64,000 nt of DNA, from contig CAJNOJ010000338.1 in assembly GCA_905250025.1 (NCBI GenBank), positions 19,296 through 83,295 on the forward strand. Reading direction: 5' to 3'. Source of the DNA: Adineta ricciae. Its lineage: Eukaryota; Rotifera; Eurotatoria; Adinetida; Adinetidae. The stretch's first letter is position 1; each line of letters opens with the position of its first letter. The notes under the pieces are model-generated. The model did no database searches. It had not been told where the DNA came from and saw only the letters and a program-made list of their open reading frames with translations. Below, piece by piece: positions 4,877 through 44,237 of the stretch. Position numbers and translations under genes: made by a program.

Positions 4877-4877
4877 N
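4877..4877. other. single N, contig join
   Basis: Joins copy 1 to the start of copy 2. Copy 2 begins inside the tRNA-Ser gene, at the base equivalent to about 98. Confidence 0.85.
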
Positions 4878-16507: not shown

Positions 16508-18214
16508 TTAAAGCCAAAAACTAATATTATAAAAATCATTTTGTAACTTTTCTGTATAGTACATCGTCTTTTTCAGCTCATGTAGTTCGTCTTTGAAGAG
16601 TTCGAATTCATTGTAATCTTGTACGATTTTAATTGAACGCATTTCCACTGTCAAATTCGTTAATTTCTTAAAATCTCTTCTGACAACATTGATAAATTCA
16701 CGTAGGGTTCCATAATATTTATCAACGGTAAACAATTGTTCTGAATAGAATTTCAACGTTCTCAAACTTCTTGATAGACCAAGTTTCGATAGTTCTAAGA
16801 AAAATGTCGAATGATAATGGTAGTTCGTAATAGCTCCTTGTTCATCTTCATCGGAAAATAAACTCAATTCAAAATGTGTGATCTGTTTTTTCCTTGCTTT
16901 TGATAGCGGCACGAGAACCTGTTCGATTTGTTTGATAGCTTTTTCAGTATTCGTCGTTGTTACGTGTAACAAACTGACATTTGTAGAATGTTGTAAAAGT
17001 AGTGATATAAACGAAAGCACATCCATTTTGAGAGCTTCAATATGATAGAAATCGATTCTCTTGAGATTTAGAAATCTTATTTTATCCGATAATTGAAGTT
17101 TGTTAGGTACAAGTTCGTTATAAGTATGAATTCGTAAGTGTTGACAATTGTAAAGATCCTGCGACTTGTAAACCTCTTCAAATGACAGTGAGGTCGGTGT
17201 GTATTGTAGCAATGGTTGACACTTTTTGAAAGCGTTCCGCGGCTGAGGTATGGGCATCGTAGAGAGTAAGTAGTTCGAATTGCGAAACGTTTGAACATAT
17301 GGAAAGTGCGACGATGTTGGTTTGTATAAAGTATGGATGGAAAATTTGAAAGTTTGAAGATGATCGAAGTTAGAAATTAAGTTGTTTAATTGGTCGAAAT
17401 TGGAAAACTCTGGTTCAGCATTTATTACTATTAATGTGAGTGCTCGTAGTTTTTCTTTAAAACATTCAAGAAACGTTTGTATTACATTTATTTTCGGCTG
17501 AACTTCAGGTTCGTCTTCATCATTGTACTGACCAAATTGTAAGTAAAGTTCTTCTAATTTTTCTGGAAGTTCCCATGAATTATTTGATTGCAAATTATCG
17601 AAGGTGATCATTAATAAATCTATCGATATCAGATGTGGCATCAATTTGAATAGTTTAGACAAAGGCGTAACAGAAGCCAAAGAAATTTGTAGATGCGTGA
17701 TCGAAGTTGGCATCCGTGAAACTTCTTCATTAATATCGGATAAACCACGAAAATAAAATAAGTTCAAATCAATTAACTGTGGCAATTCTGAATCACAAAG
17801 CACGGTTAATACATTGTCATCGGCAAATGAAACTGTGAGTGATGTTAGTGACGGCATTTGAAAAGCTTCATGAAAAAAATTCTGTTGATCTTCTTCTTCT
17901 TCTTCGTCTATTACTAATGTTTGTAGATTGTAGAACGAGTGGACTCGATCTTTTAGAAGTTGAAGTTGATGTTGTCCACTGATCTTTAGAACTCGAATAT
18001 TTTCTTTGTATAAAGGAAGAATATACTCGATAAATAGACGAAATTGTCGATACGAAGGTTTATTTTTGTATGTTAGATCAATTGTACGGGAATATGATTC
18101 GAGAATTTGCTCAAGCCTCCGATTCAGCTGATTGAATGCGTATAACAGATCAAACTTTTGTAGATAACCAAATATAAATAGTAGTAATTCATCTGGTAGT
18201 TGTTCGAAATGCAT
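16508..18214 (-). CDS. F-box protein, copy 1
   Basis: The 568-residue allele of the gene at 10617. The F-box (FEQLPDELLLFIFGYL) is identical in both copies, and the Leu-rich body is nearly the same, with scattered replacements. The acidic run is shorter and made of Glu (five Glu, then Asp). The ATG at 18214 follows a stretch that contains the same putative 5' UTR intron acceptor. Both alleles are intact, so both are probably functional SCF adaptor subunits. Confidence 0.85.
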   Translation of the reverse strand: MHFEQLPDELLLFIFGYLQKFDLLYAFNQLNRRLEQILESYSRTIDLTYKNKPSYRQFRLFIEYILPLYKENIRVLKISGQHQLQLLKDRVHSFYNLQTLVIDEEEEEDQQNFFHEAFQMPSLTSLTVSFADDNVLTVLCDSELPQLIDLNLFYFRGLSDINEEVSRMPTSITHLQISLASVTPLSKLFKLMPHLISIDLLMITFDNLQSNNSWELPEKLEELYLQFGQYNDEDEPEVQPKINVIQTFLECFKEKLRALTLIVINAEPEFSNFDQLNNLISNFDHLQTFKFSIHTLYKPTSSHFPYVQTFRNSNYLLSTMPIPQPRNAFKKCQPLLQYTPTSLSFEEVYKSQDLYNCQHLRIHTYNELVPNKLQLSDKIRFLNLKRIDFYHIEALKMDVLSFISLLLQHSTNVSLLHVTTTNTEKAIKQIEQVLVPLSKARKKQITHFELSLFSDEDEQGAITNYHYHSTFFLELSKLGLSRSLRTLKFYSEQLFTVDKYYGTLREFINVVRRDFKKLTNLTVEMRSIKIVQDYNEFELFKDELHELKKTMYYTEKLQNDFYNISFWL

Positions 18215-19249
18215 GCCTTTTTTATGTCACTAAAAAGAAAGTGTGCTATAAGTATAAATAATAAGTGAGAAAGAGAACAAGGTATCACGAGTGACCTATG
18301 ATGACTAAGTTGCAGAAAGAACAACCATTGGCGTGTTAATGTCCATAGATGACATTACATTGCGCTAGTTACATAGATGAACACCAATATATTACTTTCG
18401 TTTATGTCGATTATGTGGTGTAATGGGTTCAAAATTGGCCATGACAATTGGATCTCACCTTTTAGAACACAATTCTACACATAGTGGAAGATGCACTATG
18501 CATTTTCTGGTTCCCCATTTGCATTATTCAAAATCATCTACATCCCCAATACCAACCATTCATTGAATGTTTTCTTTATTTATAAGAAATGTAACGAATA
18601 TTTCTATCACACAGCAACAACCATATGTGCTATAGTAATGGTATTTTATTCAAAATAAGAAACAAACAGATACATTAATAAAGTGAACGAAGCCATTCGC
18701 CACAAGAAAAATTAGCTGCAAAATGAGAATAAGAAAGTTTATATGAGTTTTTAAATTTCATTATTGGTCGTATGGTTTCAAATTCTAAAATAAATGACAG
18801 TCTGCATATTGTTATGTATATAACAAGTCTATATTTATAGGGAACTCTCCAAAAGTTAGCGATTTGAAAAAACTTCGATCTTAAATTTTTCCCTATTCTT
18901 TTCTTTCTAATCATAATTGAATATGAAGGTAATAATTGTTTTTACTACACAACAGAAAGTTAAGACTAGATTGTAAACAGGATTACCGTGTTAGGATCAA
19001 CCACTAAATGCTCTCTATAATTTAAGAACCACTTCTCCATACCTCGCTCGTCTCGTTATTTCCAAAAGTCTATGCTCATGTGAAGAATGTTTTCCATAAA
19101 TGAATTGATTATAATTCGTAAATAAATGTAGATTTGGCGAAGTGTTCTTATCGTAACTCTATTTTAGTCAAAAATAACTTTCTCTAGGATTTTTATCGGA
19201 CGTGAATGAAACATCTGAAAAGTTATCGGTGAGAAGGATCCTGAACTAC
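18215..19249. other. intergenic stretch, copy 1
   Basis: Aligns with 12333-13411; nothing further is seen. Confidence 0.6.
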
Positions 19250-20389
19250 TCACTTGATTGAGAACAACAATAGTAATACCAACAGTATTCCATGGACACC
19301 ATGATGATTAGTATTAGAAATGCTACTAGATGCCACTGTAGTAGAATTGCCAATAGGGGTAGTTGTATTAGAATTACCAATAGTGGTAGACGTAGTAGAA
19401 TTACTACCAGAAACAGTTGTGGAAGTGCTACTAGGAGCAATGGTGGTAGTAGCGGTGGAAGTAACTGTTGCAGAGGTGCTACTAAGAGCAACGGTGGTAG
19501 TAATGCTGGAGGTAACTGTTGCGGAAGTGCTACTAGGAGTAACGGTGGTAGTAACGCTGGAGGTAACTGTTGTGGAAGTGCTTCCAAAAGAGACAGTAGT
19601 TGTAGTACCAGCATTGCTACAACAATAATTACAACAAGCACTAGCAGCATCAGCAGTTATATTGAAAGGATTAGTAGCAATGTAACTACCTAAACTAGCA
19701 CAAGTAGAGTAATAGCCAACAGGAACTGTAAAAGTAGGAAAAGTAATATTGGAAATCGTAATGGTTTGAGTGGTGAAAGTCGCAGTAGTTATGTTAGGAA
19801 TCGTAACGGTCTGAGTTGTAAAAGTCGGAGTAGTGATATTGGAAATTGTAATGGTTTGAGTGGTAACTGTCATAGTTGTAAACGTCGGAGTAGTAATGTT
19901 GGGAATCGTAATAGTTTCAGTAGTAACAGTCATAGTTGTAAACGTCGGGGTAGTGATATTTGGAACCGTAATGGTTTCAGTGGTCAAAGTCATAGTTGTA
20001 AAAGTTGGAGTAGTGACATCGGGACTCGTAATGGTTTGAGTGGTAACTGTCATAGTTGTAAACGTCGGAGTAGTAATGTTAGGAACCGTAATGGTTTGAG
20101 TCGTAAACGTTAAAGTAGTCATATTGGGACTTTGAATAGTAGAAATAGTTGGAACACTGAAGCCAGGACACGCACAACTACGATAACCGTTGCCATTACC
20201 ATTAATCACATATCCTCCTAGACAATTACCATCATCGTTACCAGCACTACACCCAGCCGTATTACAACTAGCACTGTTAGGTGCATTTCCTGGAGTAACA
20301 TAGCAATTACAACCGGCTGGAGGGTCGCCGTTTGTCAGATGCAGAGCTAAAAGCAATGCGAGAAAGGCAACTGTTTTACCTTGAATCAT
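19250..20389 (-). CDS. mucin-like, probably GPI-anchored surface protein, copy 1
   Basis: The 379-residue allele of the gene at 13412, with the same order: signal peptide, Cys-rich head (GCNCYVTPG), 20-residue Thr repeats, Cys patch (SACCNYCCSN), Ser/Thr array and hydrophobic GPI-type tail (ILLVLLLLFSIK). The head and tail are nearly identical between copies. The Ser/Thr array differs in unit sequence (for example SSTSATVTSSITTTV) while total length stays within one residue. Confidence 0.8.
   Translation of the reverse strand: MIQGKTVAFLALLLALHLTNGDPPAGCNCYVTPGNAPNSASCNTAGCSAGNDDGNCLGGYVINGNGNGYRSCACPGFSVPTISTIQSPNMTTLTFTTQTITVPNITTPTFTTMTVTTQTITSPDVTTPTFTTMTLTTETITVPNITTPTFTTMTVTTETITIPNITTPTFTTMTVTTQTITISNITTPTFTTQTVTIPNITTATFTTQTITISNITFPTFTVPVGYYSTCASLGSYIATNPFNITADAASACCNYCCSNAGTTTTVSFGSTSTTVTSSVTTTVTPSSTSATVTSSITTTVALSSTSATVTSTATTTIAPSSTSTTVSGSNSTTSTTIGNSNTTTPIGNSTTVASSSISNTNHHGVHGILLVLLLLFSIK
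19735..20128 (-). repeat. 60-nt tandem repeats of the mucin-like gene, copy 1
   Basis: The same repeat type and number as 13900-14293, with different unit variants (for example SPDVTTPTFTT). Confidence 0.8.
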
Positions 20390-21689
20390 TAATGTTGGCT
20401 TCTATGTATCGCACTTGAAAGTATGAGGACAATTAGTGTAGCGATACACAATTTATTTCTCTACACATAGAAAGTGATCGGAGAGAAAATAAAAATCGAA
20501 AACAAACCTGCCCATTTCTACCTCTCATATACATATATTTTGGTCTTCCTTTTAACTACGGACACGCCTTTGATATCATCATATTTAGTGACAACAACAA
20601 GAATAGCACGCTGTGATACAGTGACGCTTAAGGATGCACTTTGATCGTAAGGTAAACAAAACAAAAATAAGCTCTTTTACGTAGAGTAGTATGTGTTTAC
20701 TCATACATTTTGAATTTATTGAAACGTGTGAACACTGGATAAAGAAGATTACTTATGAACTGAATATGTGACAAATATTTGTTCATCCAAGCAATGATCA
20801 GCTGTGCATTGATGAGAACGAGAATATGCACAACGATGTTGAAATATGATATAAATTAACAACTAATTTGCCATCTTTGTGTCGTTGATTTCTAGTGCGA
20901 TGTTTTATAAATGAAAATGAATCATATAGACGTTCCAGATGAAACATGGAATAAACAATTGAAGTGAAAATGTACATCTGCAACGTAGTGTCGAATGTGA
21001 TGAGGATTTGGATTCAGTTGCACATGAATAATTGATCCTTTTCTTTTGTAATACTCTTTTCCTCTAATATCTAACGACTGACGAGTATTTATTATTCAAT
21101 CTCCAGGAAAGCTTAATTTCTGACAGTAATGATCATTCTTTAAAAGTCGATTGACACGACCACTTCCAGGTAAAATATACATTAAGATTGAGAGAGAAAC
21201 GAAAAACATCAACTGTGTATCGTATAAATTAATACGTCTTGTGAGAATCAATATTTTCTATCTTCGCGAGCGATGACATCATGAGTAACATCACATTTGT
21301 TTTTCGAAAACAGAAAAGAGCTATTTTATTATATGGATCTCTTTTTGTTTCAAATGACTTAAAGAAAGAAATTAATAACATCTTACAGATTCTGGTGACA
21401 CACAGAATTTATTATAATTGAAAATTCATTCTATTTCTGTCTCCAACCTATCAGTAATAGAAAATAAATGAATCAAATTCATTAATTATCGATATCGATA
21501 AGATATATATTCTAGTAGAAATCAAACCATATGCAATTTATATATCGATCGTTCTGAGGATGAAAGTAAACTTGAAATAAATTGAGTAATATTCATTCTT
21601 GAACAACACATGTGCGATAATGTATTCGTTATTATTATATATTATTTAGAACATTTATTTCAACAATTTGACTTTCTCAAATAGAATAA
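20390..21689. other. intergenic stretch, copy 1
   Basis: Aligns with copy 2 up to about 21558, where the copy-2 contig ended. No gene is supported. Confidence 0.6.
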
Positions 21690-23050
21690 ATTTCTCTTTA
21701 ATCTTTTCATTATTGTAAATTAGATAAATACAACAAATAAAGAGATAAAGGAAAATATCTAAAGAATAAAAAGTTAAAAGAAAAGAAAAATCTACTCGAT
21801 TAATTTGATGAATTAATTGATTTGTTCGTAATCGAAGTGTATCGGTTGTATAAAAAGATTTTTCACGCATTTGTTGATCTTTTTTCTTCTTGAATTTCCC
21901 ATTCTGATCGTTTTCGCATTCCTAAAAAGATGAAAAATTCATTTAAAAAAATGATTTTATTCATCAATTTTACTCGTCCATCGAAGAAAATTTAAAAAAC
22001 GAACATTTTGTAAAAATCATCGTTTTCTTTCATTTTTTCAGTGAGAAATTTTATTGAAAAAGATTTTTTTTTCTTCATTTGTACGTGATGATTTGAAGTA
22101 ATGACAATAAAATGAAATTTGATCTCTCAAATCAAATCAACAGAATTTCTTTTGTCAGGATTTTCAAATGACAAAATCTCATTTTACACAAAGATTTCAA
22201 ATTTCTTTTTTAGGTGAAAATTTGTGAAGAAAATAAAGAAATTAAATTGTTTTTTTTATTAAATAAGAAAAAATTTATTTTAAAATTTCAAAATTTTCAT
22301 TTGAGAAAATCAAAGAAAAGATTTATTTTCAATTTGAAATCTTAATTAACAATTTAATTCTTCTTTTTGTTTTCTCAATTTTGATAAAAATCAAATTAAT
22401 TATTTCAATTCTCATCTTTTCACAAAACACAATTTATCATTTTTTCAAATCTTCACAACAAAAATCAAAATAATCATCGTTATTCAAATCATTTTCTAAT
22501 CATAAAACTTCATTTCAGCAACTTTTCAATACAATTACATTTTCATCAATAAAATAAAATATTCTCTGATTTTCACATCTAAAATTACATTCAAATACTT
22601 CGCATTATCATTTATAACAATGACTTTTTCACTCATTATGGAAATTATTTGAGAAGTTTCTACGAAAGAAAATGAGAAGAATTTTATTACAATTTGAAAT
22701 CGAATGAAGAAATACAAAGAAAAACATCAGTTTGCATTTCAAATTGTTTTCTTTACTTCAGCAAATATCTCTGAACAATTTCCTGTTTTTGAACAAATTT
22801 CAATGAATTGATTAAGAAAAAAGATCAATAAGGAGAGTCTCAAATCACTTTGAAAGACAAAATCATCGATGAACTAAAGAGAAAATTCACATAAAATACA
22901 AAAGAAAATCTCAAATAAGAAAATAAAAGAAGATCAGAAATGAAATGTTTTTGTGCATTTTTGAAACAAAATTTGAGAGAAGTGACACAATTTTCCAGAT
23001 TATTTGAATCAATTTATGTATCGACAAGATGTTTGTATTGTGTTTGAGAT
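21690..23050 (-). pseudogene. remnant of the polycystin-like locus, internal part missing
   Basis: 21690-22000 matches the 3' end of the intact gene (about 24745-25110), including the terminal coding exon with TTDTLRLRTNQ and the preceding splice sites. About 22570-23050 matches the 5' flank of the intact gene (about 33655-34150). Only about 570 nt of AT-rich sequence lies between, against about 8.5 kb in the intact copy, so the NHL, REJ, PLAT and channel exons are absent. The 3' exon also has one extra base in an A run (near 21883 on the plus strand, six T against five), which shifts the frame. It is read as a deletion allele of the gene at 24826; an old paralogue is the alternative. Confidence 0.7.
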
Positions 23051-23752
23051 GGTTAAAAAGATATTTCTGGGCAAAACAACATATGAACCAAAAGAAAAAA
23101 TGTTCGCCTCCATTTCTATGAAATTTAACACAAATATGAAGATCTTATCAAATCGATCATGATGAAGGTGAAAGGATGGATCTATCAACTATCAATCTAC
23201 TCATTCTCGCCAGACAAAACTGTATTCCATAATTCTGCACTGCCATCTATTTGATCCATTCGAGAGCTGTGAATGAAGCTATACAATCCGTTACTGAATC
23301 TTTGAATTACAATATTTCATAGATCGGATTAGTAATCTTGATTTTGCATTTGACGTTCCATACACATTATATACAATAGAGAAGCTATGAGAAAATTTTG
23401 TAGAAATGACAATGAATAGTAGAAGCACCATCATCTTTTCCATTCTGCTCTTTTTCACATTGAGATATTATCGATAATGAACAACACGAGTACTTTCACT
23501 TTTCTCTGCCAGTGTTAAATCTACTACTTTTTCATAATATAAACAAAAGAAGAGATCAGGAACATAAGCACACTTCTCTTCTTACGATGAACTCTTTGTG
23601 GATGTTCATCAGTATGTCTGAACTGTATGACACCGAAACAGAAGGTTCTGCTCCCCTTTTTAAAGGAAATCGCAGTACAATTTGTACTGATATTTGTGTA
23701 GTTCTTAATTTTAGAATAAAGATTGTTCAATATTGAGCTGAGAAAAGCACAA
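23051..23752. other. intergenic stretch
   Basis: No homology to the other copy is seen beyond about 23050. Overlapping short frames on both strands near 23512-23736 show no recognisable domain. Confidence 0.5.
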
Positions 23753-24825: not shown

Positions 24826-27800
24826 TTAGACATTTGTTGTTCGTTGATTAAAATAAATCTGAAATGAGAAATTGGAAAAGAAAAGCAAAGAAAAGAGATT
24901 TCGTACTCGATTAATTTGATTGACGAATTGATTTGTTCGTAATCGAAGTGTATCGGTTGTGTGGAAATATTTCTCACGCATTTGTTGATCTTTTTCTTCT
25001 TGAATTTCCGATTCTGGTCGTTTTCTTATTCCTAAAACAAAGATTTGTAGAAAAGATTCTTCCATTGACGAATTTCACCTGTCCATTGAAGAAATTTCTT
25101 CGTTAAGTATGAAAATACTTCCGGATCTTCGATGACTTTTTCCCGCGCGAGTCGAAAATTCTCGTTGATAATTGATAAAAAGATACTTAAGCAAATGAAA
25201 ACAACGAGAAGAGTAAATAAAGTTAAAGAAAATGGCCCAAGAAATGTTCCCGCACGAGATAATTCATCCGAATCGAATTTCATTAAAATCATTTCAAATA
25301 ACATTTGTGATGTGTCGAATAAAGTTGAACAGGATTGGATTTTTGAAAGAAAAAGAAGATAAAATAAACAAAGAAATGAAATGAAAAGAATTGAAAACAT
25401 CAATGAAAATGAAACGAATTCTTTTGTTGATAAACGAAGTGTTTCTGCGAATAAAGATAAACGACGATTAAATCGACATAAATGAAGAAGTTTAATTGTG
25501 CCAAAGAAACAAGAAAAACCATAAAAATAATTCAAAAGATCGTTGAAATAAACAGATTCTTCTAAATTTAGAAAAACATCACCTTGACTTTCACGAAATA
25601 ATTTTCCAATTTCTTTTCCAATTTGAAATCGAACGAAATAAATTCCAATTGATGAAATCGAACAAATGATCAGACCGAGATCGATTATCGACCAAAATTC
25701 AATGAAATATTTCCATTTGAAATTGACAATCGATCGAATTTCATTGAAAATCATATAAAGAATCAACAATAAGTAAATGATTGTACAAATTAATTGAGAA
25801 AATGACGTAAAAGCTGAAAAGAAAAGATGAGATTTGTCTTTTTAAAAGAAAAATTACCGTAAAAATGAATTGGTTCAAATCGAGATTGAAAATCAATATT
25901 TCCTGTTGAATCAAATTGTGTTTGAAGTTTCACAAAAGTAAATAAATTCACATTTGGATTATAAAGTGACATTTGGATTTGAATTTCACGTGTTTGTTGA
26001 TCAATCCATTGGAATCGATGAAGTTCGGAAAGATTTCCTCGAAGATCTTTCATTGAACCACGAAATTCATAAATGTATCCACGATCTTTGGATTTGTATT
26101 GAAATGATTGAGAAATTGATGAAGAAAATAACGAAGTGGAATGTTCAAACCATCCAGGAGAAAATGAACGTTTTTCTTCATTTGACAAACTCAAATCATT
26201 TCGACAAATTGAATTTAATTTGATTCGTTTTGGACAAAGTTCTGTTCGAATTCGTGATTGTTTCATCAACGCCCAACCGAGAAGTCGATTTGAAGTGTCA
26301 TTGAGATGTCCACGGAGATATTCCACATTCTTTCCATTGTACCATTTGTGTGCACGAATCTTTCCAATAAAATCTTCTTCTAACCATTCCCAATACTCAT
26401 TCACTGATGAGATTTCCACTGGGAATGATTTTTGAAGATGTCGAACTTGAAACGAAGCGTTTTCATTATGATTTGAATAAACAATTACGAAGAGAAGAGA
26501 AAGAAAACAAATCGAAAAGAGAATTTCTCGAATAATTTTCCACATTTGAAGTTCACGAAGACGAATTTGTCGAGCACAAGCGATTTCATTTGGAGTTAAT
26601 CGATTAGGACGAGTCGATGGAAGAATTTCAATTGATGAATGAAGATTTTCTTCATCTTTATTCAACATTAATTGATTTTCATCAAAATATTCTTTCAATT
26701 CTTCATCTTCATTCGGTGATTTTCGACAAAAAAATGCAAAAAATATTGCCAAAGATAAAATCTATTCGAAAAAGAGACTCAGTTGGGAGGAAATGAAAGA
26801 GGATCGTTACTTTAATTGGTTCGGTGAGAAGAATCGATGAGAAGAATGACGAAAGAACTGAAATCAACCATTGTTGACTTTTCACATCACCAAATTCAAT
26901 TCCACGTACGATGATAAAGAATATCGAAATGAGAAATAATAGAAAAGAAATTCCATACGCAACAAATAAAAACCACCAAGGAAATCTAAATGAACATTTC
27001 TTCTTCTTCTTCCAGATTGGATTCGTTCGTTGATGACGAGATCGAAGACGACGAAAGAATTGAATTAACAAAAGACTTGGAATTAACGAAATCAATTCAC
27101 TCGTAATGCCAATGAGAATTTCATCGGATGTGATGGAAAATGTTCCAAATGAAAGATTTGTTGAATTTTTCACTTTTGCTTCATTTCGGAGATCATAAAA
27201 CATAATATTTGAAAGCATTGAAATAAAAAATAAAACAAAACAACAAGTACATCGTTGAACACGTGAAAATTGATTCGACGGTGGACGAGCAAAGATTGAA
27301 AACCATAAATGTTCATCAGAGAAATTATGAAAAGCTTTTTTTGCTAAAATAAATGAAAATTTCTTCTTTTCTTCTTCATTTGCACTTGGAAATATTCGTT
27401 CGATTTTTCCATCATCTTTTTCCACTGCAAACCATCGTTGAGAAATGAAATGAAATGTTTCCATTGTTTGTAAATCACGAATAATTATATATTTAAGAAA
27501 CCAAGATGCAAAGGAATCTTTTCCCGAATTGTCGTGCCAAATATGAAGACAATTTAATGATCCCAATGGTTTTCGAACTTTCATAACAAATGAATCAATT
27601 CCACCACGTTGAAAAATTTCTCTTTTTGAATCATCAAATGTTCGAATATGAGTTTTGTCATTTTCACCATGTAAAATAAAATGAACCTTGGATTTTGTTC
27701 CTGAATCTTTTCGATGACCAGTAAAAACAATTAATTCATAAAAATAATTGTCAAATGATCGATTATCAGATAAAGGTGTTACGCCCAATTTTTCCGAATC

Positions 27801-30800
27801 TTTTTTATCATATTTTCGTGCATAAATCATCAAAATAATATAAATAAGAATAACAATGATCACAGTTAAGTAAATTGTTTTGTTTTTGTGAAATTCGACA
27901 TTGTGAAAAACATAATTCCAATCGATCGTCTCAGGTAAAATCACAAATCCACTTGCGAATTTTGTTAAATGTGTAGAAAAACATTCGGTTTCATAATGAT
28001 TTGTTTGTGATCCAACGATTAATCCATCGGATTTCCATTGATTTTGTTGATTAAGATAAAAACAGCCAGATGTGTAAATTCTCGTTTGATAATCTGAAGT
28101 GAAATGAACTGGATCAATTGGAATTGGAAGAGTTTCATTTGAACAGAATTCATTGGATTCGAATGAAGTCAATTCGCGTAAACCAAATACGAATGTTCGA
28201 TGATCAATTGTTTGTTGATTGTCGAGAAATAAAGGAGAATTGTGAAGAGATGAACAAAACAATTTCCATCCATCGATTTCATTCATCGATCGATTTAATC
28301 GAGGAATTTGATCAAATTTATAAATTAATAAATAAGATAAATTCACATCGATTGGTTGAAATTCGAGATGAATGGAAATTGGTAAAGAAGATGAAATATT
28401 CACAAAATGATAATGAAATGTTTGATTATGATAAGAAGAATTAAATGTTGAAACATTATGAGAAATCATTGGTGAAATCACAACATTTGGATCTCGTGGA
28501 ATTCTCAAACGAATTGGATTTTGTTTTGTTGTTTCAAATGGAATTTCATTTCCATTTCGATCAAGAATTGTCAATGAAATCATCGTCGAAAGATTCGTAT
28601 TGGTATTTGTATCATAAATGGCTAATCGTTCCATCATTGATCTTAAGAGAAGAACAGATGAATTGTTTTGAAGAGAAGATTTGACATTCGATGGAAAATG
28701 AATTTCTGCTCTTCCAACTTGTTTCATCGATTTGTTTGAAATTGATTCGATTGAAATTGATTCGAATGAAATAAATGTTTCTGGTGTATCGATGATCATC
28801 TTCTGTCCAACATTTAAATGAATATTAAACGATGAAGTGACCAATGAAATCATTTCATCGACTTTCTCAATTATTTCTTTTGCCAATTTTTCTTGATAAA
28901 ATCGATTTCGATTTTCATTGATTTTCTCCATTGACAAATCGTTTCCATCAACGAATAATTCTTTCAAACAATGAAGATTTCATTTGAAGAGGTGAAAACA
29001 TTCTCAACTTACTCAAATTTGACCAATCAGAATCCAAATTTGTATCATAATCATCAGGGATTCTCGTTGAACTCTGAAAATCAGATTTTAAGAGATTTGT
29101 CCTTTGTTGTAAAACTCCGTTGACACCCTAAATCGATCATTTCAATATCAATAAAGAAAGGAAATCAGTTTACGGTTAAAATATTGGCAGAACATTGAAG
29201 AAGTTGTTGACCTGTCATTTGAATATCTTCATACGGAACTTTATTTGATAAAGAATGAAGATCTTTCGATAATTGGGAACATTTTTGTGTCACGATCATC
29301 TTTCAATGGAAAATAAATGAGAAAATAAGGTGAGAAAATGTTGAGATTTACGAGAGTTTGTCTTGTTAATTGATTTGTTGTTTCGGTGAGTTGAATTAAC
29401 GTTGATAATTGTAATTTCATACTTTCAATTGTCATCGGACGAATGTTTCTTATGAATTCACTTAAATTCTCTCGAAATTCTGCTTGAAAATTCATTTGTT
29501 CGTTGAATTCTTTCATTGCTGATTGATTGGAGAGAAAATCATTTGGAGAAGTTCGATTTTGTCCCAATGAAGAAACAGAAATTTGTGTTGATGAAATTCC
29601 ATCTGAAGAAGAAAGAAAAAATTCAATTGAAAGAAAAGATTTTACATTACTTTGCGTCGCTTTTTCACGATTTTCATTGGTCATTTGATTAAATTGTTGA
29701 GAAATTGAACTAATGATTTGTCCAATGGAATTTTGATCGTGATTTTCATGTAATTCAACTAATAAACCTTTTGTTTCTTGTGAAATGACGGAAATAGTTG
29801 ATGAAATGTTAAATTCAGTGATTGAATTCATTAAATCACGAATTTGAACAAGAAGATGAAGATTTCCACTTGGTAAACGAACAGTGAAATTGGAAATTGG
29901 AGAAAAAGCAACGATTGTTCGTTTTGTTGGATCTTTTGACCAATCTAAAAGAAAGAATCGTAGAGAAGAGAAGATTTCTTTCGTTGATTTTCTTTACAAA
30001 ACAAAGAATAATCTTTGATATTATCTTCGATTTGCCAATCGAGACATTTGATTTGAAATAAAGTTTCGATCGTTCCATTGATTCGATCGATTGAACAAGT
30101 TCCATTCGATGGTTTAGAATTGATTTTAAAATTCAATGCACTAACGCTTATTTCATCGGCAAATGAATAAACAACTTCATATCGCCAATAAATTATCTCA
30201 GGATGAATCAAAAATAAATCATTTGTTGAAGTGAAATTCTTCGTTGTTTCTCCTTTCAATTCAAATCAATTTCATCAAATTCAAAAAGAAAAATGAAAAT
30301 TTTACCGTAAAACCACGAAGAATTCCTCAGAGAGAATAAAATCCATTGAGTTGAATTTTGTGATGGATAATAAATATTCCATTGAATAATTTCATTTAAA
30401 CGACAATTTCGATAACAAAATGAATACAAAGCGACTTGTGTTGTTGGATTTATCAATTGATATTCGAGATTTGATGAACAAAGTGTTGAAATGACACATC
30501 TAAAGACAAAGAAAAGATATGTGAAACATGAAATTATCTAAAGAATTTACCCGATGATGATCATTGGTCTTTTCAAATCTTTAATTTGAACAAGAACAAA
30601 ACCAGATGCATAAATTGTCACATTTCGACGATTATTCATTTGGACCATAAATTGATATGTTTCATTTAATTGAAACGAATTCGAAAATATTCTTATTGAA
30701 GATTCTTTCGGAACTCTTCTTCCGACAAATTCGTATTTTGATGAATTGAATAAACACGAAAGATCTGACGAATCATTCGATGATTGTGCATTCGTTGTGA

Positions 30801-33656
30801 ATTCACCTTGAATTTCATATGTTTTATAACTTCGACAAAAATATCGATAAACCCAATCCTAAAAGAAAATGTCAAAAACAGATTCACAAGAGAAGAAACT
30901 CACTGTAGAATTAAATTCAAAACCATCAGGATCAATGGAATAATTTCCTGGATTTAAATAAAGATCTTCTTCATAACCAGATGTGATCATCGATGTTCCT
31001 AATGGAACAAGATTTGCAGTGATTCCTGTTGGATTAATTTGAATATAAATTGATTTTGATGATCGAATATGAAGATAATCTTTCAATTGAATATGAAGAG
31101 TAAATTCATAAATTCCATATGGAATTGTTATTGAAGGAATGTACAAATCAGTTCGGGTGAAATCAATCGAATCGAACAAAAGTTCATTTGTACAGTTTTT
31201 TGTACAATTTCGGATTTTCCATTGAGATTTTATTTCAAATGATTTTGAACATTCGAATTGAATTTTGGATAAAATATAAAAATCACGATTTCGACGAATT
31301 TGAATTGGTGATGAAAATGTTGAATGAGGAATTAAATCAATTTCAACACTGGAACATTTTTCTACTCAAATAAAATATTCGATTTTATTCAAATATTTCA
31401 ATTTTTACTTTCGATTTTTGGAAAATTTGTCGAAATTTGGTTCATTGTTGTGGAAAAAATTGTTGTTTCTTCTTTTATCGCTACAAATGAACAACTTTGA
31501 TTCGATTAAAAGGATTTTTATCAATGAAATTATCGAACTTTGTTGACTTTGTAAGATGTTTTCAATCGTTGTCATTTCATCTAAAATTTCAAAGGAGAAA
31601 TAAAAGGTTTTTCGGGAAATTTAACAAACTTTGTTGCATTTTTTTTGTTGTTTCAATAAATGAAGAGTTTTCTACAAATGAAAAAACAAAGATTTCGCTT
31701 CTTTAGTCACTTTTTCACTTACGACACGAAGTTTTTTCAAAATTAAACTTTTGAATTCGATGATTTCCATTATCAATAACAAAAATATTTCCATCAATGT
31801 CAAAACTCAGAGTAAATGGGGAGGATAATTGATCAGACTGTGAACCTTTTCCATCGCATCCAACTAAACATCGAAAACCATTCGCATCTTCTCTAATTAT
31901 ACGACCTTTTCCAGATTCCGCAATGAAAAAATATTTTTGTGCATCGAGAACAATTCCACTTGGAAGATTGAGTGTAAATGTGACGGATGAAGATCCGTTT
32001 CCCACTTTCGTTTTTCCATTTAACTGTCCAACTTCAAATTGTTGGATACGATTATTGCTATAATCTGCCACATATAAATCGAAATTCACATCAACAAATA
32101 TTCCATAAGGATGATAAAGTTGGTTGAGAGCAGAACCTCGAGCGCCATTTCCAGCAACAATTTTTGGTTTCAAATCAACATCGTTCAACCATCTCTTCAT
32201 CACTTTGTGTTTATTGAGCATTGAACAATACAACGAATTATTTTGATCGACAAACAACCCAAAACATTGAGAATCAACACTCATGACAGTGATGAAACTT
32301 TCATTTCGTTGATTCCATTGATTAACTTGATTGTTCGACCAACCATTATCGATAAAAATATCTCCAACATTTGTCACAAATATCGACAATGATTCGACGA
32401 AATTCCCCGAAATGTTTTTTGTTGGATTTGAACTTTGATTGGCCCAGATTAGAATTTGTTTTGTATCCATATTGAATGAATAGATTGTGTTGTTTGTGTT
32501 TATAAAAAGAGCACGGGGATTTGCTCCAATAATGTTTCGATCAGCAAAAGTAATTGCAGATTTATTCCAAGTTGCATTTGAACAAAATTTCGGTTGATTA
32601 AACGAAAGAGCTGAAATTGAATGAAGAAATCTGTAAAATGACTATGAAAGTTGAAGTTAGGAAATCTCGGAAGAAACTTTGAGTCTGATTCATTGATTAG
32701 AAAAGGAATGTTTAAACTAAATCATTGTAAAATCCTGTTAAGTTCTCAAAATTCTGTGAAAAAGTCGTTGATAATCGAATATCAAAGACGAAAGGATAAT
32801 TTCTGAAAGAAATAAAGTAATTATCACTAGTCTCTTTTGGATTTACTTTTCAACAAAATGTAATTCTGAAAGAATGATATCGGACGGATGAGTTTCGAAC
32901 TGTTCTTCGGCACCAAAGATATTTGCAAAAAATCTTTCTTTACCTATTGTCTCTTCGTTATGTCAGATTGTTTCAAGTCTGTTTGATACCGTAAATTTGA
33001 CTCCTCTCATTGACAGAACTTAAAACTCGACTATAGAAAAAGTGTATCTTAACGAGAACAGTACCAATTGATCATTGTCATGTGTCTTTGACTAAATTAT
33101 CGATGTTTTCAAAGTTTATGTAGTTGGACATGGAAATGTCATCGATTTAGATAAAAATATTGTCAAATATTGATTTTGATTTACCTTGCGAAATTCGTGG
33201 AAAAGCTGTTTGATCTAAATGAATGAAAAAAATCCAATTGAGAATTTCATCTGATTTCCTTTTCAAAATTTTCTCTTGAAATTAAACAAACCCAAACTTC
33301 ATTTTTCTTTACAGAAAACTGGAAGAGTACAATATCCTGATTCTAATCTGCCTGCTATTACATGAAAACGAGGTTTTTATTTAAAGGAATCGCTGTGCAA
33401 CATTTAGCGAAAAAGAACCTTGTGCGCTTATTTGGAGATTTCAAGGACAGACTGATGACCTGTTTACCTGAATTTGTTCGAACAGTTGATAAAAATCCTT
33501 CAGTTGTCATTGGAAAAGCTGTTTGAGAAAGAAAACAAAAATCACTTTTTAATGAAAACTAATTTCAACAAACTTTCTTCGATCTTCGTCGTTGTCAAGG
33601 AAACAGTTGATAATTCACCTGAAATGAAGAAGACAATTTCACGCANTTGACGCCAT
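24826..33656 (-). CDS. polycystin-1-like channel/receptor with an NHL beta-propeller ectodomain
   Basis: A large multi-exon membrane protein. In order: a signal-peptide-like exon next to the N (33619-33645; a candidate ATG at 33656 lies across the gap); two small phase-1 exons (33468-33518, 33185-33214); an NHL-repeat exon (31723-32610); and REJ-type exons from 31361 to about 29240. The GAIN/GPS region follows (28967 onward; HLTKFA with the HLT cleavage triplet), then PLAT (about 27700-27300, FYELIVFTGHR), multi-pass membrane segments, the polycystin/TOP domain (26752-25790) and the pore region (25769-25090, with FDSDELSRAG and SIINENF). The NHL-to-REJ junction keeps frame: the donor GTAAGT after 31723 joins the acceptor before 31361. 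The last exon is 24826-24858, after a 48-nt intron. Polycystin-1 relatives sense ligands or force and gate cation flow. The usual LRR, WSC and PKD repeats are not seen. Exon details between 29,000 and 30,500 are approximate. Confidence 0.82.
33646..33646. other. single N, contig join in the first exon region of the polycystin-like gene
   Basis: The sequence on one side ends in a signal-peptide-like exon and the other side offers an ATG (33656-33654, minus strand), so the two contigs are probably truly adjacent here with a small gap. Confidence 0.7.
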
Positions 33657-35619
33657 TTGTTATTCACACCTAAATTACATCCAAATATTTCCCATCGTCA
33701 TTTGTAACGATGACTTTTTCACTGATTATGGAAATTAGTTGAGAATTCCGCTCAATTGTGTAGGAAATCAAAGATTCTAATGGAATTTCAGAAGTTTGTA
33801 CGAAAGAAAATGAGAAGAATTTTGTTACAATTTGAAATCGAATGGAGAAATACAAAGAAAAACATCAGTTTACATTTCACATTGTTTTCTTTACTTTCAG
33901 CAAATATCTCTGAACAATTTCTGGTTTTTGAACAAATCTCAACGAATTGATTAAGAAAAAACATCAATAAGGAGGGAATCGAATCACATTGAAAGAGAAA
34001 ATCTCAAATGTGAAAACAAAAAAAGATCAGAAGTGAAATGTCTTTACGCATTTCGAAACAGAACTTGAGAGAAATGAGACAATTTTCGAGATTATTTGGA
34101 TCAATTTATATGTCGAGAAGATGATTGTATTGTGTTTGAGAGAGGGTTTTCAGATATATCAACAAATACCCCATTGATTGTTGATAATAAATCGAATGAG
34201 AAATTGAATAAAACTCATTGTTGAAGTTGAATATGAATAACTGAAAACTGATGATTTATAACATTTGTAATAACGAACAAATGGAGATGAAATAGTTCCA
34301 TCATCATTTCTTTAATTCGAATCAAAAGTAAAGCATTCCGAGAAAAAAGATGATGATATTGAATTATAAACAAGAAGTATTTTGATAAAACATTGATTGT
34401 TCAATGAAATTGTATTGAATTGATAAGTATTTCTTCGAATAATAACATTTCATTGTTGATAAAAAGAAGAGAATTTATTTGCATATTTCATAATATGATT
34501 TGATTGACAATGACTGATTGATAATACCAAAAGGATTTCGAAAACAAAATCACCAATCGAATTTTCATCATTGAATTTCAAGAAAAAAGAAAAGGAAATT
34601 TCAGTTCAAATGCAAATCTTTTCTTTAGTTTAACAAAAGAAAAAGAAATTTTTCGGTGATCATTGTTCATTCTCCGTTTAGTTCTCAAAAGAAAAGATTT
34701 GTATTTTTTAAATCTAGGATTCATTGTTCGTTCATATTCAATAACGTTTCTTCAATGACACATTTTCAAAATTCGAAAAGAGAAAATTTTGTGTAAGAAG
34801 TTCAAAAATGCGAAAAATCCTTTTTCAAATTGGAAAAATCATCGCTTAAGTAAACAATCGAATGTAGAGATGGAAGAAGTACAAAAAAAGTGAAAACAAA
34901 AGTAATGAATATGAGAAATTCGTTTCGATGAAATTTCGATTCATAGCAAAGATTTACATGTTCGATCAATTTGTTATTGTTCGAACTAAAAACAATTTCA
35001 ATTAGTAAAATGGAAGAAATCTTCATTTTGAATAATTTACTTAAGAATTCCTTGTCGTTCGAAAGTTCATAACGATAAGAAAATACTTGTATTCGGTAAA
35101 TTAAGTGATTCAATCGATTCGTCGTTCACCAACATAATTAGTGATTGTTCCAAGATGTGGGAAAAATCAATGTTATAAAATTTATAAAAATAAACAATGT
35201 GAAATGAATGTCACGGACTCCAGTATACTTATCAACTTATGGACAAAGGATCATTTAGAAGTTGAAGTACTTCCAAAACAAAATGCAACGCGCTCACTTC
35301 TGATTGATTGATTATTCACTAATGAGAAGAGAAATGTAGAGTTGAGTTAGACATCGGTAACGATTGATGATTTTTATCGGATTTTAATAGATTATATTTG
35401 TTAATCCATTCATATAGACACATTTCTAACTTTCATCTTTTTCTCGCGTGTGTTTTGTTCTCGCTGAAAAATGTTTTGGAATTAATTTTGTCTTTTTTTT
35501 GTCGCGGGTGTGTAATTGAAAACTTGTTTAAAAAGCAACAAATTAATGAAATCTTTTATTTATGTTCAACAAATGAAGGAAAACTTGGCAATTGAACAGA
35601 AAGATCCAACAATAGTTGT
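33657..35619. other. upstream flank of the polycystin-like gene and AT-rich intergenic DNA
   Basis: 33657-34150 matches 22570-23050. A 103-codon minus-strand frame at 34802-35113 contains a hydrophobic stretch but I do not recognise it and it has no homologous partner here. Nothing else is supported. Confidence 0.5.
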
Positions 35620-38556: not shown

Positions 38557-39597
38557 TTATTTCCCTTTGAATATTAATTTAAGTAATTCCTGTCGAAAGA
38601 TTCGTCCGGTCAACGTGTAAACAAAAAACATTACCGAGTTGTTAAAATACGTCATTAAGATAAAAATTTGAGCCAGAAAATTCTCTATTTCTTTACGTTC
38701 TACCGACTTATCGGTGTACACAGTTAATGAAGAATAAAGTTTATAAACACCCATGGGAGAACTGAAGATAATCAGGATTCCAACCTAAAACAACGCACAA
38801 ACAAAGATTTAGCTCACCAATAGCACCACTGTTAGACTTACTTGTACAAATAACATTGTCATAATTTGTAAATCTTGTTTTCGAACTTGGGTTCTTGGAA
38901 TTGATTCACTTGGAGATTGATTTGTTGTTGCCACTTGTCTACGACTTCGTCGGCGATTTCTCAAAGTTAAATAACTAAAAATGATCATCAAACAAATGGG
39001 AATTGTTGTAAAAAAGATCATTAATAGAAGTCCATCAACAACTTGACACGCAGTTGAAGTTGTATAACACGAACCAACGGAGTCGACATGTCCGTTATTA
39101 AAACAGTAAAATGCTTCAACATAGATCAAACATCCAACGAAAGTCACGACGTAGATCGATCGATAAACTATTTTCTGATTACAAAGATTTCGAAGAGAAG
39201 CCGAAAGTGATGAACTACAATATCGATCAAAACATGCAAGTGTAATGAACCAAGATGAACAATAAAGTAAAAGATACGTAAGAAAATATCGGATTTTACA
39301 TAAGATTGAGAAATAAGATGTATAATCAAGATTATATCCATTTAAGAAGCGAGTTATTAAACCAATATAAAGCACTAAGAGACTGACGACTGTTGTTGAT
39401 AGTAAATATTGAACACAGGAGTTTTTTCGTAGAGTTTTTCGAGTGAAAATAATAATATTCAGGATATTTCCAAATGTGCCTATGATTAACAATGGAATCG
39501 GAACATAACGATTGATTATCGCCGAACTCCAATTCCAATAGGATGATGATGATGACGATGCATTCAACATTTTTTTCAAGAAAAATACTCTTCTCAC
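38557..39597 (-). CDS. class A (rhodopsin-like) 7TM receptor
   Basis: Two exons, 39597-38842 and 38784-38557, with a 57-nt GT-AG intron (38785-38841), giving 327 residues. TM1 carries the GN motif (LIIGTFGNILNIIIF), TM3 ends in the DRY-type CFDRYCSS, and TM5 (MIFFTTIPICLMIIFSYL) is followed by a basic third loop. TM6 spans the intron. TM7 reads NNSVMFFVYTLTG, the form common in invertebrate peptide-type receptors. The N-terminus has a NAS sequon and no signal peptide. It should couple an extracellular ligand, possibly a neuropeptide, to G proteins at the plasma membrane; the ligand is not predictable here. ATG codons at 39597 and 9 codons later are both possible starts. Confidence 0.85.
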
Positions 39598-39817
39598 GGA
39601 GTTTCCAAGATTGAATGATCATCTCGTAACCAGAGAAAGACTCTTTATCTTCTTTTAACAATTAGATTCATTTATTCAATTCATTATCAACACGTCGTTT
39701 CCGTTCTCGGAATAGATCGTACTTTACGCACGACATCACGCAGTTTATTCATTTTGTCGAGCTCTGACTTTGATGAGCTATAGAATCCAGTGCAAACATA
39801 ATGAAAGTCAACGCAAA

Positions 39818-41032: not shown

Positions 41033-41643
41033 GTATTTTCAATCAATCTCTATTCTTTGATATGTATGGTGCAAGAAAAATGGAGAGCACAAAAAAACAA
41101 ATGGTGCAATAACACCCTCACCAATCGTGTTTTCTTTTCAATTCTACGCTTTGTGTTGCCATCAGAACATGCTTAACAACATATTGTTGTAGTCAAACAA
41201 ATAACAATGAAAAAACAACTTTTCACATATGCCGATGCGGAATTATCTTGTGGAGTTAACAGACGTTGTAGAACTAACAGAGGGCAAAGTCCGTTTCCTC
41301 ATTGATAATGAAGTACATATTCACGGCATCACGCCACTTTTATTCTGTGAAAGAAAGGTTATTTATGATTTATTGATTTGATCTTCTACGTAACAACGGT
41401 TATTTTATTTACCGATTTCTCGATCTCGATTGTACCGAGAAGAAAATTTGAATTCCGAGGGATTTTATTTGATTTCTCCAGTTTGATGACGTATAGAATG
41501 TAATATCAAATATCATTTGAAGGTGTAATCAATCAAACATATTTGTTTTCATTACGGAAAGAAACATTGAATGATTTCTCGCTTCTTTCGATTGACAACA
41601 GTATAAAAAAAAGGAAAAAGTTTATTCAAAAAGAAAAAACATC
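41033..41643. other. divergent intergenic region
   Basis: Lies between the starts of the ADP-ribosyltransferase and the NHL-EGF gene, so it probably holds both promoters. No gene is seen. Confidence 0.5.
41602..41608 (+). promoter_or_regulatory. TATA-like box of the NHL-EGF gene
   Basis: TATAAAA, 36 bases before the ATG at 41644, which would imply a very short 5' UTR. In AT-rich DNA this may be chance. Confidence 0.3.
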
Positions 41644-44237
41644 ATGTTTTTATTGAAAATTCTCAGCTTATGCTTGATCATCCATAAACCTAAAGGTGAC
41701 ATAATTTTATCTACACGAGCATCATGGAATCAAACTGGTATTACTATAATCGGATCGTTAAACACAACAAACAATGCTTCATCGTTCGAAATTTCTTCTT
41801 CTTATGATATGTCAATGTCCTATGGCGATCGACTGTATATCAGTGATACAAGTCATGATCGGATTTTAATTGTTGACATCAATTCTCCTAATGACGTGTC
41901 AGCGATTGGCTCTGGCCCAAATGGTTCACTCGGTTCATTCGACGCACCGTTTGGAATCTCCACAACGAACACTTCGCTCTATGTTATTGACTTTGGTAAT
42001 AATCGTGTTCAGAAAATGTTACTGAATGGCTCCGATCCGATTCGAGTCGCTAGTATTGCTCGTCTGGATCGACCTCACAATATTTTCGTTGATAATAACG
42101 ATAATATCTATCTCAGTGATACTTTCAATCATTCCGTATGGCTTTTTCTTTCAAATGGAACGAATGGAACGATCATTGCAGGTGATACAACCTATGGTTC
42201 AGATGATAATCAACTCGCTTTTCCCAATGGAATCTTTGTCAATTCCAATGGTACTCTATATATCGCAGATCTTGGAAATAATCGAGTTATGAAATGGTAC
42301 GCAGGAGCTTCGTCCGGTATTCGTGTCGCAGGAAACGGAACACGTGGCAGTAGTTTAGCACAACTTAACTCTCCCATATATGTTCTTGTCGACACGAATG
42401 AATATGTCTATGTTAGTGATGCTTGGAACCATAGGATTATGCGTTGGGCACCAAATGCGACAGTTGGAGAATGTATCATTGCTTGTACAGGGAAAAAAGG
42501 CTCGTCTGAAACGCAACTATACTTTCCAAATTCTCTAGCACTCGATAGTCAAAATTCACTGTATGTTGGTGATTATTCAAACAATCGAGTGCAAAAATTT
42601 CAATACCAAATTCCATTTTATAATCAACCAGAATTGAGCCCATGTGCGGCGTGGAGTTCAGTAGGAACGACATTTGTCGATAATGAAACAATTGGAGCAA
42701 GACCTTTTGGGTTGTTTATTGACATTAAGAATACAATTTACATTCCTGAACGAGCATTAAATCGTGTGCAAATCTGGATGGAAGGAAGTGCAACTCCGAC
42801 ATTAAATATCACATTTAACTTAAGCAATCCGATGTCGGTCTTTGTCACGAGTGTCGGAGATGTTTATGTTGATAATGGTTCATCAGGAAAACGAGTTGAT
42901 CGGTGGATGGTGAATGCAACGATAGATGTCCCTGCGATGTATGTTCAAGATTCTTGTTACAGTGTGTTTGTTGATAACAACAATAGTTTTTATTGTTCGT
43001 TGGGTAATCTTCATAAAGTTATGAAAAAAACGATGAATTATGTAGCGAATCAGACGGTTCTGGTAGCTGGAAATGGTACTGCCGGATCGGGATCATATAT
43101 GTTAAATTCTCCTCGAGGAATTTATGTTGATAAGACATACAATTTGTATCTTGCCGATTGTGGGAACGATCGAATACAATTTTACCAATCTGGTCGATTG
43201 AATGGAACGACAATTGTCGGACAAAGTGCGAATAATTCTTTCGATCTCGATTGTCCAACAGGAATTATCGTTGATAATAATGGATATTTGTTTATATCTG
43301 ATTCGCAGAATAATCGCATCATTGCATCGAGTTCATATGGTTTTCGTTGCATCATTGGATGTACAAATTCTGAATTGAACCATCCACAGATGATTAGTTT
43401 TGACAAATACGGCAATTTATTCGTTGTTGATACTTATAACCATCGAATTCAAAAATTTTATTTGATAATCAATACGTGTGGTAAAACATTCAGTAAAAAG
43501 ATATCTTTTCAACTAAATCTCTATTTCATTTAGTTTCTCAATCGTTAACAACGTTTGTGGCAACAGGTTGTCTAAATTCGTCTACTTTCGGTGTGTATTG
43601 TAATGCATTAAGTAATCCTTGTGCTGCATTGAACCCATGTCAAAATAATGGAACTTGCAATCTCAGCAATACAACATCTCTTGGTTATAGTTGCTCGTGT
43701 CCCGTTGGTTTTAACGGTAGTCAATGTGAATATAATAATCGACCGTGTCAATCGAATATTTGTTGGAATAATGGGATTTGTAATGAAACATCGCCAACGA
43801 CATATTCGTGTGTATGTGCTGCTGGATGGGAAGGAAAGAATTGTCAGACAAAAATCGATTTTTGTCAAGGGATTACTTGTCAAAATAATGGAGTTTGTCG
43901 TTCGAGATATTTGAATTATACGTGTGAATGTCTTAGTCAAAGTTATTCAGGTCGATTCTGTGAAATAACATCAACATCAGTGCAAACACGTCAACGAGTG
44001 GCGAAATCATTTGGTATCATTGCAATCATTGTCTTAATCTGTACTGTTTTATTCATCCTTACTCTCGATGTTATAAAATATATCTGTGGTATTGATGTGA
44101 CTGGAAAAGAACTGGAGAAGATCCGCGAAGAAAAACAATTAAAAAAACAAGAACGTTCATCGAATCGTCGCCACAGAAAATCACAATCGAAATATGTCAA
44201 AAGACGCATTCCGATTATTATTATCTCCATTATTTAA
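41644..44237 (+). CDS. secreted-face NHL-repeat, EGF-like, single-pass membrane protein
   Basis: Two exons (41644-43480, 43534-44237) with a 53-nt GT-AG intron give 846 residues. A signal peptide (about 1-19, MFLLKILSLCLII) is followed by two NHL beta-propeller regions (about 55-330 and 345-610) built from repeats such as LYIADLGNNRVMKW, with many N-glycosylation sequons (NGT, NGS, NTS). Three EGF-like modules follow, each with six Cys (CQNNGTC, CWNNGIC, CQNNGVC), then a transmembrane helix (GIIAIIVLICTVLFILTL) and a basic cytoplasmic tail. It is probably an extracellular recognition or adhesion protein at the cell surface. The second propeller closely resembles the NHL exon of the polycystin-like gene (FCS/PCAAW start, DSCYSVFVDNNNSFYCS, GFRCIIGC), so the two share an ancestor. 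Confidence 0.9.

Follow-up and report, generated by a model that had tools for sequence, protein, structure and literature searches.

Can a polycystin-1 protein carry an NHL beta-propeller in its ectodomain, and what would such a propeller do there? The question is raised by a gene on the minus strand of a 64,000-nucleotide stretch of the Adineta ricciae genome (contig CAJNOJ010000338.1), called the window below. The original prediction had placed it at 24826-33656 as a single polycystin-1-like channel with an NHL ectodomain. Here we rebuild its exon chain, compare it with its paralogues (C323, C267 and others, named by these handles where needed) and analyse the selection acting on it. We find that the NHL exon is joined in frame to a REJ, PLAT and polycystin core of the PKD1 family, and that this core is under purifying selection. 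Computation also shows diversifying selection, concentrated on one exposed face of the predicted propeller. We consider it probable that the product is a recognition receptor.

The exon chain and the NHL–REJ join

Rebuilt from the sequence, the gene comprises the NHL exon and 13 further exons, 14 in all, which encode 2277 amino acids with no internal stop; all 13 introns are GT-AG. The NHL exon (32610-31723, 888 bp) has its donor GTAAGT at 31722, and the acceptor AG of the REJ exon stands before 31361. Both sides of this junction are in phase 1, so that the frame is kept, and the split codon C|AA gives Gln. The join originally proposed, from an NHL exon at 31723-32610 ending in GTAAGT to a REJ exon at 31361, is thus borne out.

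The other exons, likewise on the minus strand, follow from the splice model and the alignment of paralogues, with Pfam matches in exons 2-6, 10 and 11. REJ begins in exon 2 (30904-31361), runs through exons 3 (30551-30858), 4 (30306-30499) and 5 (29998-30252), and its match ends in exon 6 (29651-29944). The region between REJ and GPS occupies exons 7 (29352-29602), 8 (29174-29299) and 9 (29013-29127). Exon 10 (26811-28960) holds the pre-GPS region, GPS with its HLT, the first transmembrane segment (TM1), PLAT, and TM2 onwards, and exon 11 (25858-26761) holds transmembrane sequence and the polycystin (TOP) domain. Segments S2-S6 of the channel, placed by Pfam and alignment, lie in exon 12 (25079-25813), where Met-Lys stands at the filter position that is Gly-Asp in PKD2L1. 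The C-terminal tail (exon 13, 24907-25031) and the final codons with the stop (exon 14, 24826-24858) complete the chain.

A Pfam search of the spliced protein, one of the checks named in the original prediction, matched all four expected profiles: NHL (PF01436, 1.3e-9), REJ (PF02010, 1.6e-34, residues 328-787), PLAT (PF01477, 3.2e-14, residues 1372-1486) and PKD_channel (PF08016, 3.7e-33). Polycystin_dom (PF20519, 1.1e-19) was found as well. PLAT lies between hydrophobic segments at 1325 and 1533, and the hydropathy scan gives 10 clear transmembrane segments, the expectation for the PKD1 family being 11. GPS (PF01825) scores 19.6 bits, under the curated cut-off of 22.5; a Cys-rich stretch with a terminal HLT at 1293 is nevertheless present, 32 residues ahead of TM1 at 1325, and is kept in C323 and C267. 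Of the predicted succession on one protein, PLAT and the polycystin pore are borne out, and the GPS (HLT), below its threshold, is putative. A sequence search against the PDB matched 17 sequences of polycystin-2, 2L1 and PKD1L3 (best 7.2e-24). PKD repeats, LRR, WSC and lectin domains gave no match at E<=1 in the 2277-residue model, from which the 5' end is missing. Such domains are common in polycystin-1 ectodomains, not universal, and their absence does not disqualify the protein from the PKD1 family, since its 5' end is missing and the sea urchin SpREJ members vary too.

The alternative to a single protein is that two neighbouring genes, one for a secreted NHL protein and one for a separate REJ-polycystin, happen to be joined by an in-frame splice through coincidence. 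Several details speak for it. An in-frame stop lies a few bases beyond the NHL exon, inside the intron, and the 361-bp intron contains one AATAAA. The in-frame join is predicted from DNA. C924, moreover, does not preserve the junction: the sites that align with it are not GT/AG, and a GTAATT follows 3 bases further on, so that C924 is silent on this junction. The closest copies, on the other hand, keep its splice sites. C323 is collinear with the window from 33063 to 24733 (94.2% identity over 8.3 kb), with GT-AG at all 13 introns and exon indels amounting to one of 3 bp and a single base in the last exon; in C267 the NHL donor and the REJ acceptor are kept and the intron is 96.4% identical. 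In C164, C506 and C646, which are more distant, the donors at the end of the NHL exon are GTATGT, GTGAGT and GTAAGC, respectively, and REJ starts after AG. Two paralogues carry both domains in a single open reading frame (ORF): C600, where the intron is gone, in 479 residues (NHL 1.1e-14, REJ 5.8e-16), and C188 in 531 residues (NHL 1.9e-11, REJ 2.7e-10). In C255 (L059) a run of Ns separates the NHL exons from later exons and the junction is not readable.

Inspection by eye revealed no convincing leader between NHL and REJ. Hydrophobic leaders are found ahead of NHL exons instead: MN[FI]SFCLLWIFIQRIST stands in frame before those of C924, C456 and C493, and another such leader before the first NHL exon of C600.

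The same order recurs throughout the genome. Of 103 REJ matches we used the 58 that start at profile position 20 or less; for 29 of these the same strand carries an NHL exon whose end lies no more than 6 kb upstream (for 25, no more than 1.5 kb), where uniform placement predicts 0.18. NHL exons upstream on the opposite strand were found for 0 of the 58, and downstream on the same strand for 4. When the 102 PLAT-exon fragments are merged across gaps under 1500 bp, 50 cores result, and in 25 of them NHL lies on the same strand no more than 12 kb upstream, compared to 3 downstream and 1 upstream on the opposite strand. With an 8-kb limit the count is 24 of 50, with 0 after strand flipping and 0.20 expected. 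NHL, PLAT exon and PKD_channel follow in order in 13 of the 50 cores, and among the best 50 of 90 PKD_channel matches NHL lies within 15 kb upstream in 15 (strand-flipped, 0). The 8-kb PLAT and 15-kb PKD_channel counts draw on 135 of 150 NHL entries. As 133 NHL exons were scored among 1401 candidates, the adjacency counts are lower bounds. Given the kept junctions, the single-ORF paralogues and this adjacency, we reject the two-gene reading, which we consider extremely improbable, and the claim of one polycystin-1-type protein with an NHL ectodomain stands.

Selection on one face of the propeller

We now consider how the NHL exon evolves. Compared with C323, the ratio of nonsynonymous to synonymous rates (omega) is 0.21-0.31 in the core (channel 0.25, polycystin domain 0.21) and 1.09 in the NHL exon. 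These counts leave out codons containing gaps, N or stops. One stop was skipped against C323, in exon 10; C323 itself is stop-free there, so this is probably an artefact of alignment phase. Against C267 the number is 4 (1 in exons 3-7, 2 in exon 12 and, in exons 13-14, 1 that may be the normal stop of the gene).

Site models (M1a against M2a) applied to the NHL exon give twice the log-likelihood difference (2dlnL) as 107.5 for five copies on a tree, 121.2 on a star phylogeny, and 63.4 for three copies on a star; the five-copy set excludes C456, which is partial, and the second module of C924, at 60% identity. The same test on the core exons yields 0-8. Null simulations of the NHL exon, with parameters set by hand close to the fitted values, reached at most 6.8 in 15 runs, and at most 4.4 in 11 runs with recombination.

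The AlphaFold2 model of the NHL module is a six-bladed propeller with a predicted local distance difference test (pLDDT) score of 94.3 and a predicted template modelling (pTM) score of 0.92, and in Foldseek it matches Pizza6 (E 1.0e-16). On this predicted structure, the 21 sites with P>0.95 fall almost entirely on one side: 18 are among the 88 residues of the BC/DA loops, 3 among the 125 strand residues, and none among the 82 of the AB/CD side, which here includes residues 1-18 and 289-295. The ratio of nonsynonymous to synonymous differences per site (pN/pS) is 2.33 on the BC/DA face and 0.29 on the other, while pS is similar, at 0.089 in the variable loops and 0.075-0.081 elsewhere. Taken on the model, these data show computationally that diversifying selection is concentrated on one exposed propeller face in this subfamily. 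We also considered whether all NHL modules are hypervariable, and rejected this, as the NHL pairs C325 and C188 show no comparable excess.

A whole-exon omega near 1 could also arise if the exon were decaying, that is, evolving fast through lost constraint without change being favoured, and C267 and C924 are indeed broken at other places. The M2a fit, however, assigns an omega near 0 to 59% of the NHL codons, the NHL exons of C323 and C267 are free of stops and indels, and the changes lie on one face at a similar pS. We therefore consider decay very unlikely.

Another explanation attributes most of the diversity to gene conversion or chimeric assembly involving more than 100 NHL exons, and gives the propeller a fixed adhesive or structural role. 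NHL modules at different positions do share blocks, for example the LGAV tract found in C323 and in the second module of C924 (L011, L014), which suggests exchange between modules, and homology breaks and Ns adjoin NHL exons. Conversion from distant donors should, on the other hand, raise synonymous differences in the variable loops, and the pS values given above differ little; recombination simulated under the null also stayed far below the observed statistic. This explanation appears to us improbable, if less so than decay, and diversifying selection on the BC/DA face remains the preferred reading. Conversion may still be the route by which variants spread.

The 5' end, the spread of the module and the rest of the window

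The stretch up to 33656 lacks the beginning of the gene, which corrects the original prediction. The window contains single Ns at 4877, 15704, 24046 and 33646. The last of these is a probable assembly join, and similarity to C924, C493 and C456 breaks there. At this point C924 and C493 are longer by about 1.9 and 2.1 kb, a stretch that includes another NHL exon, their first, with an ATG and a hydrophobic leader in frame ahead of it. The match of C456 extends to 33647; this copy has the same start and runs into a further NHL exon, inside which its contig ends. In C323 the similarity to the window stops within a few bases of an N at 81454, and in C267 within a few bases of a run of Ns at 11240-11273. 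We infer that the assembly failed at near-identical NHL modules, and that a further NHL propeller would begin the true protein.

The four long copies (C338, C323, C267 and C924) are all incomplete between ATG and stop. The start is present in C924, but its channel exon contains frame-breaking gaps. In C267 a stop lies within the pore exon, GT/AG is lacking at the positions aligned to the exon 4 donor and the exon 5 acceptor, and exon 7 carries a 56-bp insertion. As a candidate first coding exon we considered 34141-33660, which is conserved in C267 and C924; frame-breaking indels and the lack of a shared ORF led us to take it as non-coding. A copy of this block (matching 33663-34141) recurs on the minus strand at 21777-23134, adjoining a copy of the last exons (21777-21992). 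The N at 24046 separates this remnant, which has the appearance of a tandem copy that was collapsed or deleted, from the main gene.

The NHL exon is symmetric, with phase 1 at both ends, and the same holds for apparent short exons around it, read by eye. Two lie in the linker between NHL and REJ, at 31630-31671 (42 bp) and 31409-31480 (72 bp, Thr-rich), and are kept in C323 and C267; three lie upstream of NHL, at 33185-33214 (30 bp), 33468-33518 (51 bp) and 33574-33618 (45 bp), and are kept in C493 and C924. All are on the minus strand, and the NHL exon is thus likely flanked on both sides by putative Thr-rich cassette exons. Symmetric phase-1 exons are a classic signature of extracellular exon shuffling.

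In the genome, the NHL exon has matches in at least 133 places. NHL is counted among the expanded families in a 2013 Adineta vaga paper, and "polycystin" has 0 occurrences in it (PMC3846280). The module also appears in other settings. On the plus strand of the window, 41596-44237 holds a second NHL receptor gene with a leader-like start, two propellers in a 645-residue ORF (NHL 1.5e-38), and a next ORF with EGF repeats (1.7e-14) and a hydrophobic segment, which is the same module on another receptor class; C758 has three propellers within a single ORF. At 59583-61216 (plus strand) a caspase-like domain (Peptidase_C14, 3.7e-17) adjoins an NHL propeller ORF (1.9e-29) with no leader seen, possibly encoding an intracellular caspase-NHL protein. 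C600 (23518-28436, minus strand) has lost several introns, seemingly kept others, and ends at the GPS motif; it is possibly a shortened form lacking the channel.

Among the remaining features of the window, 10617-14566 and 16508-20401 form an apparent duplication in the ORF list, about 5.9 kb apart, with ORFs that we take to be F-box-like and Thr-rich mucin-like, each present twice. What is presumably a sugar-kinase-like ORF also has two copies, at 2861-3880 and 7496-8629. The Ns at 4877 and 15704 fall between duplicate copies. A rhodopsin-type seven-transmembrane receptor ORF (7tm_1, 2e-10) lies at 38809-39618 on the minus strand.

Channel role, proposed function and comparison with known systems

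The Leu-Gly-Asp filter of PKD2L1 aligns to Leu-Met-Lys in the window protein, and the same is found in C323 and C267. The protein is thus not of the PKD2 type, which has a Gly-Asp filter and no REJ, GPS or PLAT: it has Met-Lys, and both REJ and PLAT. In the active 1:3 complex of PKD1L3 and PKD2L1, one Lys from PKD1L3 enters a filter otherwise made of Asp (PMC8357825). This precedent, together with the Met-Lys in the filter, suggests a mixed channel that includes a partner of the PKD2 type, and by this analogy the protein is more likely one subunit of such a channel than a channel alone. Candidates for the partner may be sought among the 35 of the best 50 of 90 PKD_channel matches for which the 15 kb upstream contain no listed NHL exon.

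The Met-Lys could also be read as a sign of a receptor for adhesion or signalling without any part in ion conduction, and the paralogue C600, which stops at GPS, fits with this. Against it stand the purifying selection on the channel and polycystin domain given above, the PKD1L3 precedent of a filter Lys in an active complex, and the NHL-less matches, which leave room for partner channels. We judge a non-conducting receptor unlikely. Of the originally proposed link between an NHL recognition module and a cation channel, the NHL-polycystin join is upheld, with the refinement that the filter favours a subunit of a mixed channel. The missing 5' NHL exon, the size of the family and the hypervariable face go beyond the original prediction.

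On this basis, the gene probably encodes a polycystin-1-family receptor in which one or more NHL propellers act as a variable recognition ectodomain on a PKD1-type TRPP subunit. The ectodomain would consist of the propellers (one left in the window, the first probably lost at the assembly join), Thr-rich linkers, REJ and the GPS-containing region, and would be followed by TM1, PLAT, further transmembrane segments, the polycystin domain and the TRPP channel fold. The variable face would bind ligands that differ or change over time, such as microbial, self/non-self or environmental molecules, and binding would be passed via REJ and GPS to the membrane part. The latter would contribute the odd subunit to a heteromeric cation channel of the PKD1/PKD2 type, as the filter Met-Lys in place of the Gly-Asp of PKD2L1 suggests.

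Many sister genes share this layout, and the gene may be a member of a so far undescribed receptor family with a sensing or self/non-self role. More tentatively, and with rather less than even confidence, we propose that the genome holds a repertoire of hypervariable NHL propellers, carried as symmetric phase-1 exons on polycystin-1 cores and also on EGF-type receptors. This would constitute an undescribed non-self or allorecognition system reporting by TRPP ion flux, whose diversity would come from duplication, the exchange of modules and selection acting on a few residues in each blade.

What polycystin-1 proteins bind in nature has long been a question. It becomes testable here, as selection marks the likely binding face residue by residue. 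Sperm-egg recognition is the usual reading of the evolution of REJ-type receptors in sea urchins. If the animal is an asexual bdelloid, this cannot explain the fast evolution of such a receptor, which would then point to immunity, self-recognition or chemosensing.

Finally, we compare the protein with known systems. The PKD1 family, including sea urchin SpREJ, has the same order of REJ, GPS (putative in the window protein), PLAT, polycystin domain and TRPP fold, but the SpREJ and PKD1 ectodomains carry C-type lectin, EGF, SUEL, PKD repeats, WSC or Ser-rich regions where the window protein has NHL; the text contains 0 occurrences of NHL (PMC1934368). The gene is a polycystin-1 family member with a new ectodomain, and its hypervariable face is what would surprise a specialist. 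PKD1L3 resembles it in being of the PKD1 type and in carrying a Lys in or near the filter (PMC8357825), but has no NHL and scored far lower than PKD2-type chains in the search with the window protein.

The six-bladed NHL propeller itself is shared with TRIM2/3/71, Thin, the PknD sensor and the Pizza designs; none of the matched proteins is joined to a REJ-polycystin core. These NHL proteins are parts of ubiquitin ligases, kinases or designs. The NHL-EGF receptors of the same genome (41596-44237; C758) have the same module and a leader-like start, with EGF repeats and one hydrophobic segment (by eye in C758) replacing REJ-polycystin. In the open-licence PMC literature, as far as its texts were covered, we found no description of an NHL-polycystin, in agreement with the original statement that no NHL version is known; automatic protein-database annotation, outside this scope, may list such proteins. 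A rotifer-lectin paper (PMC8878817) has 0 occurrences of NHL, PLAT, REJ, PKD, polycyst and ion channel.

Positive selection is reported for coral tachylectin-2, a propeller lectin (PMC2880987), and for the lectin domains of sea urchin REJ proteins (PMC1934368). The closest working parallel is a family of fungal NLRs with WD repeats, including HET-D and HET-R, in which diversifying selection acts on four positions per repeat at the interaction surface of the propeller (PMC4986451). There the repeats are WD and not NHL, and the protein is an intracellular NLR and not a membrane channel, so that the likeness would be one of convergence, not kinship. The gene described here would thus be an animal parallel to these fungal recognition receptors, built on a different propeller and set in a membrane channel.

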